Shown here piece by piece: positions 23,894 through 28,435 of a stretch of 31,794 bases of DNA (the stretch's first letter is position 1; every line of letters begins with the position of its first letter). The notes under the pieces were generated by a model. That model was not told the DNA's origin. It saw nothing but the letters and a program-made list of their open reading frames with translations, and did no database searches. This DNA is from a virus. A program made the translations under genes and the position numbers. The stretch covers positions 1-31,794 of the IMG/VR virus record IMGVR_UViG_3300042465_002155. One strand, written 5' to 3'.

Positions 23894-25438
23894 TTAGTAG
23901 TATGCGGCTTGTCTGCTGCGCCTAAATATTCTAGGCTCGTCTTTCTCGTCGGAGTCTAACGAAATAAACCCGCCTTGGCGATAGCGCAGCAGCGCTTGGG
24001 TTGTTGTGTCCACGTAATCGTCATTCTCGCCGACGGGGAACGAGGCTATTTCCTCGATCACTTCCCGCGCCCAACGTGTGTCGGGTGCCCAGACCTTGCC
24101 CGAGGTGAACAGGTCCGCTACGGCGTTGAGCCGCACCATTTTATCGTTGCCCCGGCTGGGGCTGAATTCCTGCACGGGTATGCCCATTGCCCGCAGTTCT
24201 TGAATCAGTGGTCCACCGGCAGCTTTCTTCTCCACGATGAACGCATCGGGTTCCCACTCTTTCCAGTGCTTGAGCGCGACTTGTTTGAGTTCGGGAAACG
24301 TCATCCGATCTTTAAACGCGTCCAACAGAATCAACTGCGGGCTGTCGTTCTCCTCCGGGTTGTAGAACACCCCCCACGTTGTGCAGGCGCTGTAGTCCGA
24401 GGTGTTCTTTACCTCGTGGGCCGTATCCCAGCTCTGCAGTATGTAGTCGCACTTGGGGGGCTCATCGCCCTCCCACACCCGCCAGTGCTTGCGGGACACC
24501 AGCGCGGAGTTCTCGCTCGTCGGTTGCTGCATGTACTGGGCGTTCCAGTACCTCGGCTCAATGCTGGCCTTCGTCGCTTTCAGCGTTTCCAGTGGCCACT
24601 GCTCGGGCCAGAGCGACTTTTCGTTGTCCTCATCCTCGTTCAAGATGGCGGGCAACTCCACGATTTCCCACGGAAGTGAGTCGGGGTTTTTGGTCTGGTA
24701 CGTTATTAAACGCCCGGTAAGGTCGAGAAGTGACCACCGCGTCATCACAATGATGATTGCCCCACCCGGCATCAAGCGCTGTAGGGGGCCGGTCTGAAAC
24801 CACGACCACGCGGTGTCGAACGCCAGTCGGCTGTTGACCTTTACATCTTGTTCGGAATGGGGGTCATCGACGACAAACAAATCAGCCCCACGACCGGCAA
24901 GAGCACCACCAACACCAGCGGCGTAATACTGGCCACCGGCAGCAGTAGACCATTTTCCAGCAGCTTTTTGATCCGCTGCCACCCGCGTTTCAGGAAAAAT
25001 AGCATGGTAGTCCTCAGAGTCGATTAGGTTTCGGACCCGCCGCCCAAAGTCTTCCGACAGGGATGCAGTGTGCGTGCCCATGATGATTTTCTTCTCAGGG
25101 TATTTACCTAAGAAGTAAGCAGGGAACAGGTATGAGCTGAACTCGGACTTGCCCATACGAGGTGCAATATTAATGATCACGCGTTTTTTCCCGCCCTCGA
25201 TCACATCCGTAAAAATCTTGGCCAGCTTGCGGTGCTGGGGCCCGATTTTGAATCCGGGGTAGACCGCCGTGGCAAAACCCAGCATGTTGTTCTGAGCGGC
25301 CATAAGGGATGCGCGTCTTTCGCGGACCTCCAAGTCGTCAAACAACTCCATCTTGTCTTTGATCGACATCGTGGGCAGCGCCCGCATAAGCGCCTCTAGC
25401 TCTGGCTTGCTGAGCGTGGTTATTTTGTCAAGGTTCAT
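23894..25438 (-). CDS. terL: Terminase large subunit
   Basis: I start at the ATG at 25438 (MNLDKITTL, 514 residues); an earlier in-frame start would add eight residues inside the upstream gene. The ATPase half has a deviant Walker A (APRMGKSEF, about residues 92-100), Walker B (LFVVDDPHS, about 187-195) and the coupling motif VMTRWSLLDL. The nuclease half has SWDTAHEVKNTSDYSACTTW with the first catalytic Asp near 338, FIVEKKAAGGPLIQE, and the last Asp in DDYVDTTTQALL. It uses ATP to package DNA through the portal and cuts the concatemer. The gene overlaps TerS by 11 bases. Confidence 0.95.
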   Translation of the reverse strand: MNLDKITTLSKPELEALMRALPTMSIKDKMELFDDLEVRERRASLMAAQNNMLGFATAVYPGFKIGPQHRKLAKIFTDVIEGGKKRVIINIAPRMGKSEFSSYLFPAYFLGKYPEKKIIMGTHTASLSEDFGRRVRNLIDSEDYHAIFPETRVAADQKAAGKWSTAAGGQYYAAGVGGALAGRGADLFVVDDPHSEQDVKVNSRLAFDTAWSWFQTGPLQRLMPGGAIIIVMTRWSLLDLTGRLITYQTKNPDSLPWEIVELPAILNEDEDNEKSLWPEQWPLETLKATKASIEPRYWNAQYMQQPTSENSALVSRKHWRVWEGDEPPKCDYILQSWDTAHEVKNTSDYSACTTWGVFYNPEENDSPQLILLDAFKDRMTFPELKQVALKHWKEWEPDAFIVEKKAAGGPLIQELRAMGIPVQEFSPSRGNDKMVRLNAVADLFTSGKVWAPDTRWAREVIEEIASFPVGENDDYVDTTTQALLRYRQGGFISLDSDEKDEPRIFRRSRQAAYY

Positions 25439-25997
25439 TGACAAGAATGTCCTGCACATCAACTACGCCCATGAACCGGTTGAGCTTTTCCTTGATCCGC
25501 ATGTCCAGCTCGTTGTCAGTCAGCTCTTCCTTCTTGATCTCGATCTTCTCGGTGAACAACCCGACCTCCGTCACCTTGCCGAGCAGTCCGAGCGCCTTGA
25601 GGCGGATGTTAGCGTTGGTGCTTTTGGTCTCTTCGACCAGTTGGGCGACGACATAGCCGCGCAGCTCCTTGGCTTGGTTCACAAACTCCCAGTCGTAGGC
25701 GGTCAGCATGCCTACCAAATGCTGCACTGCAGCAGGGGTTTTGACGTTGGCTACTGCGAGGGCTGTGTTTTCTGCGGGGGCGGCAGAGATGATGTTGGTG
25801 AAGGCCGTCTGCGCGGCTTTGGCGTCTAGGGGCCCCGCTATGGCGTCCGAATCCACCGCGCCAAGTTTTGTCAGCCAGTCGTTAGTGGCAATTTTGGCGT
25901 CAAGCAGTTGCTCTGGGCTCGCCCTTTCGGCGCTCAGTGCAGCGTGAGATGTGTGTTCAAACACCTCGGGGTCAAAATCTATCAGGTGATCTAACAT
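25428..25997 (-). CDS. terS: Terminase small subunit (probable)
   Basis: I choose the ATG at 25997 (MLDHLIDFDPEVFEHTS, 189 residues), eight bases after AAGG. A GTG at 26042 would give 204 residues. The frame is open even further up to about 26080 with no in-frame ATG, so the true N-terminus is uncertain. The sequence is helical with a long C-terminal arm (TEVGLFTEKIEIKKEELTDN then ELDMRIKEKLNRFMG) like other small terminases. It has no obvious enzymatic motif, and the assignment rests on its position directly before TerL. It would recognise the packaging site and oligomerise. Confidence 0.7.
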   Translation of the reverse strand: MLDHLIDFDPEVFEHTSHAALSAERASPEQLLDAKIATNDWLTKLGAVDSDAIAGPLDAKAAQTAFTNIISAAPAENTALAVANVKTPAAVQHLVGMLTAYDWEFVNQAKELRGYVVAQLVEETKSTNANIRLKALGLLGKVTEVGLFTEKIEIKKEELTDNELDMRIKEKLNRFMGVVDVQDILVNEP

Positions 25998-26310: not shown

Positions 26311-26458
26311 GGGGTGATACCACCCCGGTGGGGGTCGCCATATACCACATCTGAGGGGTAAAAACAACCCCTTCGGGTAAAATTGACTTGTCGATGTGGT
26401 AGGGAATGGCTCTGCTACGGGACGTTAACCAGTGAGACAGATGTCTCAGGAGAATCAA
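26311..26458 (+). promoter_or_regulatory. Structured leader of the early operon
   Basis: Three inverted repeats lie before the first early gene: GGGGTG/CACCCC (26311-26326), TACCACATC/GATGTGGTA (26343-26351 with 26393-26401), and inside the latter two alternatives, GGGGT/ACCCC or ACCC/GGGT, that compete for the same bases. TTGACT at 26383-26388 resembles a -35 box but has no good -10. A nine-codon ORF (26406-26435, MALLRDVNQ) ends exactly inside the first TGAGACA palindrome. The whole suggests an attenuator-like leader; regulation is inferred. Confidence 0.4.
26433..26448. promoter_or_regulatory. TGAGACA palindrome, copy 1
   Basis: TGAGACA-GA-TGTCTCA, a perfect 7+2+7 palindrome, abuts the GGAG ribosome binding site of the gene at 26459. 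It overlaps the stop of a nine-codon leader ORF. Confidence 0.8.
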
Positions 26459-27235: not shown

Positions 27236-27436
27236 ATGGTACGCAAAGTAAACAAGCCCCTCGCCGTCCGCAACTTCATGGCCAACAACCCGCTGGCTAA
27301 CGCCTTCGTGTTAGAAGCGATCACCAAGTACGCGGTCGAGCAGCTCGACGCCCCTGCATGGGAAGGGTACACCTTCATCAACCAAGACGCATGGAAGGAC
27401 ATCGCGCAGCAAGCGCTCGATGTGCTGGGCGACTGA
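27236..27436 (+). CDS. Small early protein of unknown function
   Basis: This 66-residue helical protein (MVRKVNKPLAVRNFMANNPL, ANAFVLEAITKYAVEQLDAP, then EGYTFINQDAWKDIAQQALD) has AGGAG eight bases before the ATG. The stop TGA is the first three bases of palindrome copy 4. The N-terminus is basic and the C-terminus acidic, a layout common in small phage regulators, but I recognise no family. Confidence 0.75.
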   Translation: MVRKVNKPLAVRNFMANNPLANAFVLEAITKYAVEQLDAPAWEGYTFINQDAWKDIAQQALDVLGD

Positions 27437-27449
27437 GACAGCTGTCTCA
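27434..27449. promoter_or_regulatory. TGAGACA palindrome, copy 4
   Basis: TGAGACA-GC-TGTCTCA, perfect 7+2+7, with the stop codon of the preceding gene inside it. It is followed four bases later by the left direct repeat of the foldback element. Confidence 0.85.
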
Positions 27450-27453
27450 CTTT

Positions 27454-27483
27454 GGAATATCAGTCACGAACCGCTATGCGAGA
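27454..27483 (+). repeat. Left direct repeat flanking the foldback
   Basis: GGAATATCAGTCAC, seven variable bases, then TATGCGAGA. The same blocks recur in the same orientation at 27829-27859 with eight variable bases. The GAATATCAGTCA part is also the exact complement of 27492-27503. Confidence 0.85.
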
Positions 27484-27491
27484 TTTGAAAA

Positions 27492-27841
27492 TGACTGATA
27501 TTCTAGAAATGGCCCTTGGCAGCCTTGGCAAAATCGAATATCACCTCACCAAGCGTTTTGCCAAGAACTCTCTAGCATCCATGCGGGTTTGGGCGCAAGC
27601 ACACGAATTTATCCACCTATATATATATACTAAGAAAACTAATTATATATATGTGCATATAAATTTATACATGTATATATGTGAAACACATATATAGTGG
27701 GGGTGTAGATATGCACCTCAAAAAAGGTGGATGAATGCGTGTGCTTCGGCCCAAACCCGCATGGATGCTGGAGACTTTATGGCAAAAGTCGTGGTGAGGT
27801 GATATCCTATTCTGCCAAGCTCTGCCAAGGAATATCAGTCA
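27492..27841. repeat. Long imperfect foldback with AT-rich loop
   Basis: Left arm 27514-27618 and right arm 27725-27830 are inverted copies; by hand I count about 15 mismatches and one gap over 106 positions, roughly 86% identity. Exact blocks include ATATCACCTCACC and the 20-base core AGCATCCATGCGGGTTTGGG. The pairing extends outward (TGACTGATATTC with GAATATCAGTCA) after an 11-base bulge. The 106-base loop is mostly A/T with smaller hairpins (ATATATGTG/CACATATAT). It lacks a credible gene. It may be a mobile foldback, an origin or single-strand initiation site, or a long structured RNA. Confidence 0.85.
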
Positions 27842-27859
27842 CCGTGCAAATATGCGAGA
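27829..27859 (+). repeat. Right direct repeat flanking the foldback
   Basis: This is the second copy of GGAATATCAGTCAC plus TATGCGAGA. Together with the left copy it brackets the foldback like a duplicated target or a pair of binding sites. The first 13 bases also form the outermost part of the right arm. Confidence 0.85.
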
Positions 27860-27867
27860 ATACATGT

Positions 27868-27937
27868 GAATAAGTGAGACATCTGTCTCACCGAACGGTT
27901 CGCAGCGTGCCGTCTCACGCTGCACTTGTAACGAGGA
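27868..27937 (+). repeat. 70-bp leader repeat, copy A
   Basis: This leader contains palindrome copy 5, a spacer, an 8-bp hairpin GCAGCGTG-CCGTCT-CACGCTGC (27902-27923) and the GAGGA ribosome binding site of the gene at 27945. Copy B (28358-28427) is identical except at three positions, two of which are a paired base swap in the hairpin stem. Confidence 0.9.
27874..27891. promoter_or_regulatory. TGAGACA palindrome, copy 5
   Basis: GTGAGACA-TC-TGTCTCAC, perfect 8+2+8, just after a GAATAA that duplicates the 3' end of the gene at 28127-28363. Confidence 0.85.
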
Positions 27938-27944
27938 AGAGAAG

Positions 27945-28130
27945 ATGAAAACAACCACCATCAAGGCGGAGCAATTGGCCCGTCTCCGCGCTCTGCGCGA
28001 CGATATCGTACGCCGCACCAACTACGACCGATCCGAGCGCTTGCGTAAGCAGCGCGAAGCCGAGGCGATCAGCAACTACTGGCTGGCCTACGCCAGCACC
28101 ACCAAACGCACAGGAAGGGGGGCACGATGA
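27945..28130 (+). CDS. Small basic early protein of unknown function
   Basis: This 61-residue, Arg/Ala-rich helical protein (TTIKAEQLARLRALRDDIVR, then RTNYDRSERLRKQREAEAIS) is preceded by GAGGAAGAG. The stop overlaps the next start as ATGA. The amphipathic basic helices suggest nucleic-acid binding, but there is no recognisable domain. The leader upstream is the duplicated structured leader. Confidence 0.75.
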   Translation: MKTTTIKAEQLARLRALRDDIVRRTNYDRSERLRKQREAEAISNYWLAYASTTKRTGRGAR

Positions 28131-28363
28131 GCGCACTGACAACCCCCACCCAGATCGCCCTGTTCCGCTTAGCCACGCTGCGCTCCGGCCTCAAGCTAGA
28201 GACAAAGGGCCTACGCATGGGCCGCAACAAGAGCGCCTACGCCATCCTCAAGGGGATGGGCTACAAGGGCACTCGCGCCGAAGTCCTCACCCGAGTGACC
28301 GCTGACGTTGAGGCGGGCAAGGCCGCTATGGCCCAAGCCTCGGGGGGAACATTCACGGAATAA
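28127..28363 (+). CDS. Small early protein of unknown function
   Basis: This 78-residue protein (MSALTTPTQIALFRLATLRS, LKLETKGLRMGRNKSAYAIL, then KGMGYKGTRAEVLTRVTADV) has its start overlapping the upstream stop (ATGA), so the two are coupled. The basic middle with GRNKSAYAILKGMGYKG resembles small DNA-associated phage proteins but I cannot name the family. Palindrome copy 6 begins one base after the TAA. Confidence 0.78.
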   Translation: MSALTTPTQIALFRLATLRSGLKLETKGLRMGRNKSAYAILKGMGYKGTRAEVLTRVTADVEAGKAAMAQASGGTFTE

Positions 28364-28427
28364 GTGAGACATCTGTCTCACCAAACGGTTCGCAGCCTGC
28401 CGTCTCAGGCTGCACTTGTAACGAGGA
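28358..28427 (+). repeat. 70-bp leader repeat, copy B
   Basis: This is the second copy of the structured leader, before the gene at 28436. Its hairpin is GCAGCCTG-CCGTCT-CAGGCTGC (28392-28413): the sixth stem pair is C-G here and G-C in copy A, with pairing kept. Sequence outside the hairpin differs at a single base. Confidence 0.9.
28364..28381. promoter_or_regulatory. TGAGACA palindrome, copy 6
   Basis: GTGAGACA-TC-TGTCTCAC, perfect 8+2+8, immediately after the stop codon at 28363. Confidence 0.85.
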
Positions 28428-28435
28428 TGAAAAAA

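Follow-up and report, generated by a model that had tools for sequence, protein, structure and literature searches.

A conserved long foldback with paired boxes as a candidate replication origin in a freshwater phage and its relatives

We analysed a 31.8-kb virus record from a freshwater phage (31,794 nucleotides; IMGVR_UViG_3300042465_002155), referred to here as the window. A long foldback lies among small early genes on the plus strand, between open reading frames at 27236-27436 and 27945-28130. Phages of this family carry genes for a family A DNA polymerase, an SNF2 helicase and a DUF927/primase-helicase. Neither the window DNA nor the foldback found a match in cultured phages when compared by blastn with the INPHARED collection; the closest cultured terL is about 50% identical, and the phage group yielded no near relative among cultured phages. 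The features of the region are as follows.

23894-25459, minus strand: terL
27433-27450, no strand: early-region palindrome CTGAGACAGCTGTCTCAC, left flank of the foldback
27454-27467, plus strand: direct repeat GGAATATCAGTCAC, left copy, absent from the relative L086
27492-27841, no strand: whole foldback, outer arms included, non-coding
27492-27503, plus strand: outer left arm extension TGACTGATATTC, 100% complementary to 27830-27841
27524-27618, plus strand: left arm, 85% complementary to the right arm
27570-27589, minus strand: box 1 AACCCGCATGGATGCTAGAG, its 18-bp core exact on the minus strand
27614-27655, plus strand: near-invariant AT core CACCTATATATATATACTAAGAAAACTAATTATATATATGTG, a candidate unwinding element that includes a small hairpin of its own
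27699-27719, plus strand: small loop hairpin GGGGGTGTAGATATGCACCTC, kept in group A relatives
27725-27819, plus strand: right arm, pairing with the left arm
27754-27773, plus strand: box 2 AACCCGCATGGATGCTGGAG, in the orientation opposite to that of box 1 and 182 bp from it
27829-27842, plus strand: direct repeat GGAATATCAGTCAC, right copy
27830-27841, plus strand: outer right arm extension GAATATCAGTCA, forming a 12-nt perfect pair with 27492-27503
27874-27891, no strand: early-region palindrome GTGAGACATCTGTCTCAC, right flank of the foldback

The two arms are complementary over 95 nt without gaps and enclose a 106-nt loop, and the pairing extends to 27514-27830 when gaps are allowed. Folded as RNA, the foldback reaches -214.7 kcal/mol, against -104.7 +/- 5.6 for shuffled sequences (z -19.7). 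The inverted arms and 106-base loop of the original prediction are thus borne out. The flanking direct repeats that it described are also present, both GGAATATCAGTCAC and a second repeat, TATGCGAGA, at 27475-27483 and 27851-27859. However, a third copy of GGAATATCAGTCAC lies inverted at 27492-27503, which indicates that the direct repeats are part of the outer stem of the palindrome rather than a target-site duplication. Substitutions between the window and L086 number 13, 12 and 13 at codon positions 1, 2 and 3, agreeing with the earlier observation that changes at all codon positions do not suit a conserved gene pair. This spread, together with the lack of a PHROG match for a 68-residue open reading frame, rules out protein-coding arms. 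A DnaA-box-like TTATCCAC in the stem of the window was set aside, as it is not kept in the group B relatives introduced below.

Long foldbacks are present in at least 26 contigs whose terL is related, each contig having its own; they lie mostly about 2 kb 5' of terL, once per genome at a syntenic place. A scan found a single long foldback in each of the window, G001 and G003, with those of G001 and G003 at the same place as that of the window; G002 has the box pair described below and lacks a strong foldback. A separate contig, L085, has a foldback identical to that of the window, the copy in L086 is diverged, at 75% identity, and that in L007 is diverged as well. The identical copy and the diverged ones together dispose of the concern, raised at the outset, that the inverted repeat might be an assembly artefact, and the retention of foldbacks across the terL relatives shows that the foldback is no isolated insertion. 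The relatives fall into group A (the window, L086 and L007, with L006 close to them), with the near-invariant core CACCTATATATATATNNTAAGAAAANTANTTATATATATGTG, and group B, with the core type TATCTATCTWTTTAANATATATTTATATATA; many relatives have a G-rich patch, GGGGGTG, after the core. The foldback is a conserved non-coding DNA site, not a stray insertion.

This pattern of conservation bears directly on two alternatives. Long inverted repeats of terminal type, with direct repeats flanking them in the window, are what would be seen in a miniature inverted-repeat mobile element, one of the candidates first put forward. We reject this candidate and regard it as extremely improbable, because the relatives carry single copies in a shared syntenic position, the flanking repeat is palindrome stem, and the GGAATATCAGTCAC direct repeat is absent from L086, whose flank differs from that of the window. 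No other copies were found, and the empty site that was to be sought in related phages did not appear among the relatives. The second alternative is a pac-like packaging site, at which a TerS-type protein would sit on two boxes and packaging would start between them. Flanked pac sites are known from P1 and SPP1, the foldback is about 2 kb from terL, and a distant relative, DSL-LC04, has a foldback with 45-nt arms near its annotated terS. Against this, the ends of metagenomic contigs do not cluster at the foldback, islands have the same box and foldback next to primase-helicase genes, and small plasmids also carry the box, so that we consider a packaging role highly unlikely.

Comparison of the arms across relatives, as originally suggested, indicates that their sequences diverge while the pairing is retained through two-sided changes. 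In the 21 group B sequences used for a covariation test, 91% of cells are paired, and two-sided changes are seen in 162 cells, where shuffled sequences have 63.6 +/- 6.1. The covariation score reaches 0.421; shuffled sequences score 0.163, and slid structures at most 0.097. The consensus behind these values was derived from the same 21 sequences, which favours it. Arm pairs switch between Watson-Crick pairs with almost no G.U intermediates: the group B arms outside the boxes have 11 G.T and 19 A.C cells, and all elements together, read on the plus strand, have 109 G.T and 224 A.C.

These counts are central to whether the foldback acts as RNA, that is, as a transcribed long hairpin serving as an RNase III site, an antisense regulator or a structured non-coding RNA. 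The very stable fold, the small conserved hairpins in the loop, the pairing kept across relatives and the position of the foldback among plus-strand early genes would all suit such a molecule. However, a plus-strand helix should prefer G.T, and the asymmetry runs in the opposite direction in both sets, so that it cannot serve as proof of RNA. No Rfam 15 family is matched at its gathering score, and the sub-threshold Rfam matches are nearly all to eukaryotic microRNA models, as expected of any long hairpin. There is no plus-strand promoter-like site inside the foldback, and the paired boxes are kept in sequence. The hairpin RNA of the original prediction is accordingly disfavoured and we judge it unlikely, with a minus-strand RNA less strongly excluded than a plus-strand one. 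The A.C excess may come in part from unequal change between the arms, and hence is no proof of a minus-strand RNA either. Since there is no excess of G.U, the pattern of pairing argues for symmetry of the DNA itself, not for an RNA helix; either the DNA symmetry is selected, or conversion or template switching keeps the arms alike.

Both arms contain a box of about 18 bp, AACCCGCATGRATNCTRG, and between the two copies lies a (TA)n core that is strongly conserved. The box has imperfect dyad symmetry, which in its 20-bp form we read as CGCNNGNATNCNNGCG. Two boxes lying 177-201 bp apart with no more than five summed mismatches are present in 21 of the 29 contigs that cover the region. Under this strict rule, box pairs occur only at the foldback in the whole records scanned, and there are none in 12 shuffled genomes. 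A looser rule, free of limits on AT content or summed mismatches, finds pairs in 13 of 25 control regions of 5 kb, and so the strict rule alone is informative. The box pairs of G001 and G003 are present with more mismatches, and L007 and L084 have a foldback without recognisable boxes. The AT content between the boxes is 52-69% in the relatives. The boxes point inward in most relatives, and outward in the window and L086.

The box pair also directly adjoins a D5/P4-alpha-type primase-helicase gene in three unrelated elements, two of which share the geometry of the foldback. These two, L257 and L300, have foldbacks with 77-nt arms that are 79% and 77% complementary, respectively, and loops of 102 and 103 nt, next to a gene for a DUF5906 primase-helicase; a comparable foldback is absent from all 146 control windows. 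L257 and phage G001 share a box variant, AAGCCGCACCAGTACTAG, which in L257 is the second box. In the third element, viral contig L172, the boxes are 176 bp apart and lie about 70 bp from a related primase-helicase gene. This arrangement recalls the crr of P4, the annotated cis-required region for its replication, a 300-bp region of two 120-bp repeats lying 45 bp past the alpha gene: as with the L257 and L300 foldbacks, two repeated modules spanning some 300 bp stand beside a primase-helicase gene. There are clear differences. In P4 the 120-bp copies are direct and contain 8-bp type 1 repeats, whereas the arms of the phage foldback are inverted, and the adjacency to the primase-helicase gene is found in L257, L300 and L172 only, the gene lying about 16 kb from the foldback in the phage family. 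P4 has no box within four mismatches and no long foldback. The foldback is therefore not a sequence member of the P4 type, and the likeness is one of place and build.

The box also occurs outside the phage family. With a fixed GCG end it occurs exactly in 74 bacterial contigs, mostly of Burkholderiales, where we estimate that about 7 would be expected, and the 18-bp core has 59 matches in 43 of 201 genomes of one family, against none for a reversed control pattern. The box is also exact in more than 400 plasmid records, mostly from one family of 4-kb E. coli plasmids, and in Chaseviridae phages and RaK2. In the E. coli plasmid pMG828-2 its place is intergenic, with iteron-like repeats and the gene of a Rep_3 initiator downstream of it. 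Plasmid 2b has it immediately next to three 21-bp iterons, with a RepB gene nearby. These two origin regions thus share the 18-bp box of the phage foldback, but each has a single box and no long foldback. In phiEcoM-GJ1 the box is inside a 1.2-kb non-coding gap. Chromosomal boxes lie beside DUF5906 and DUF927 primase-helicases (L257, L300, L296), and others neighbour a relaxase, integrases or recX, or lie at the 3' end of genes whose products match GlmS and GMP synthase domains. Given these mixed chromosomal, plasmid and phage settings, the box is often tied to mobile elements, yet not to origins alone. Host boxes are not enriched overall for a hairpin context. A literature search on the box sequence gave no relevant match; in two papers containing CATGCGGGTT, one on integrons and one on resistance genes, that sequence is an ISCR1/orf513 primer.

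Several more particular settings of the box were noted. For seven boxes (L278, L298, L307, L312, L316, L323 and L389), the distance to the 3' end of a tRNA gene is exactly 2 or 6 nt, and the orientation is the same every time. Acidovorax (L285, L287) has the box about 150 bp in front of priA, and in Acidobacteria (L272, L281, L294) it precedes by about 80-100 bp a gene that looks HU-like from its first residues, judged by eye. Variovorax L344 and L351 have compact hairpins with two inverted boxes about 20 nt apart. RaK2 (L360) has exact boxes in direct orientation at 1918 and 2001, 83 bp apart, outside annotated genes and with inverted repeats around them.

Two further readings draw on these settings. 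The boxes could be sites for a recombinase or an accessory protein, with the palindrome mediating integration, inversion or resolution. The seven boxes at tRNA 3' ends, the several boxes within 250 nt of tyrosine integrase genes and the change from inward to outward orientation between relatives give this idea, also among those first proposed, some substance. However, the arrangement in the phages is stably syntenic, no integrase was recognised among the subset of window open reading frames searched, and the box is also present in the origin regions of plasmids and next to primase-helicase genes. A recombination or attachment site consequently seems improbable to us. Alternatively, the foldback could be a hub of transcription control, in which the boxes are operators through which a conserved regulator would control early genes and the palindrome is a looping or attenuation device. 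Its early-region position between phage-specific palindrome arrays, the dyad-like box, and the boxes upstream of priA and of HU-like genes fit this proposal, but a dimeric regulator needs neither palindromic arms of about 95 nt nor a near-invariant AT core, and the orientation of the box relative to nearby genes is inconsistent. We give such a hub a somewhat lower probability still.

The original prediction named several candidates without choosing among them. The comparative evidence favours the replication origin, and we put about even probability on the foldback being an origin or a crr-like cis site. At the locus there are an A/T-rich core and paired binding-like sites at a kept position, in one copy per genome. 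The position, conservation, uniqueness, pairing, box pair and AT core are all observed, as are the box at origin-like sites elsewhere, the DNA-type covariation and the same architecture beside primase-helicase genes in other elements. A GC-skew minimum lies near the foldback in G001 and locally in G003, but not in G002, and is confounded by a switch in gene direction. Counting against an origin, many copies of the box lie elsewhere: near recX, ahead of priA, and at integrase genes and tRNA 3' ends. The gap of about 16 kb between foldback and primase-helicase gene in the phage family also weighs against it, as do the foldbacks of L007 and L084, in which no boxes are recognisable, and the negative results for the box within four mismatches in P4 and within two in F, R100 and ColE1.

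As an origin, the foldback might work as follows. The two opposed, dyad-like boxes of about 18 bp, one in each arm, would be bound by a replication protein, for which the DUF927-type primase-helicase of the phage or a host replication factor is a candidate. The bound protein would help to open the near-invariant (TA)n core, perhaps by way of a cruciform extruded from the long palindrome, and the opened core would allow priming to begin on both strands, so that DNA synthesis would start here. Origins of the herpesvirus oriS/oriL type have inverted initiator boxes around an A/T spacer. As in the foldback, inverted box-like sites there flank a (TA)n core within a palindrome; however, the sequence and the virus are unrelated, and the arms of the foldback are longer and imperfect. 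The foldback also resembles ssi sites, which are palindromic accessory sites of plasmid replication modules. Opposed ssi sites are found in the IncQ oriV. The ssi of pIGRK is palindromic, and its loss alters copy number and multimerisation (PMC6854812). The foldback is not a sequence member of the ssi plasmids, since a box with up to two mismatches is absent from F, R100 and ColE1.

An origin here would provide a defined 350-bp target for the start of replication in this phage group. Phages, small E. coli plasmids and chromosomal islands have the box in common while differing in their initiator genes, and this sharing would point to one factor common to many mobile elements. We therefore tentatively propose, as a possibility that we think rather less probable than the origin itself, that the box is a general cis site of one widely shared replication or maintenance factor, adopted by phages, plasmids and genomic islands across phyla, and that in the phage foldback two opposed copies of it, set in DNA-symmetric arms, make up an origin. 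If this is true, the shared factor and its site are directly testable in E. coli with replicons of the pMG828-2 type.

The early region around the foldback has further repeats. In many phages of the family, a short palindrome peculiar to each phage occurs three to seven times there and nowhere else in the record; such arrays were seen in the window, G001, L007, L011, L025, L030, L036, L080 and L086. The palindrome of the window, GTGAGACANNTGTCTCAC, lies at 26432, 26848, 27149, 27433, 27874 and 28364, that of G001, GGGGAACNNGTTCCCC, forms an array at 38527-46377, and L007 and L011 have GTGTCACNGTGACAC. These palindromes look like operator or stoperator arrays whose specificity differs from phage to phage. 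A 76-nt leader module occurs twice in the window, at 27868-27943 and 28358-28433, with 93% identity between the copies. Its order is the palindrome, a GC hairpin, a Shine-Dalgarno-like stretch and the start codon of an early gene.
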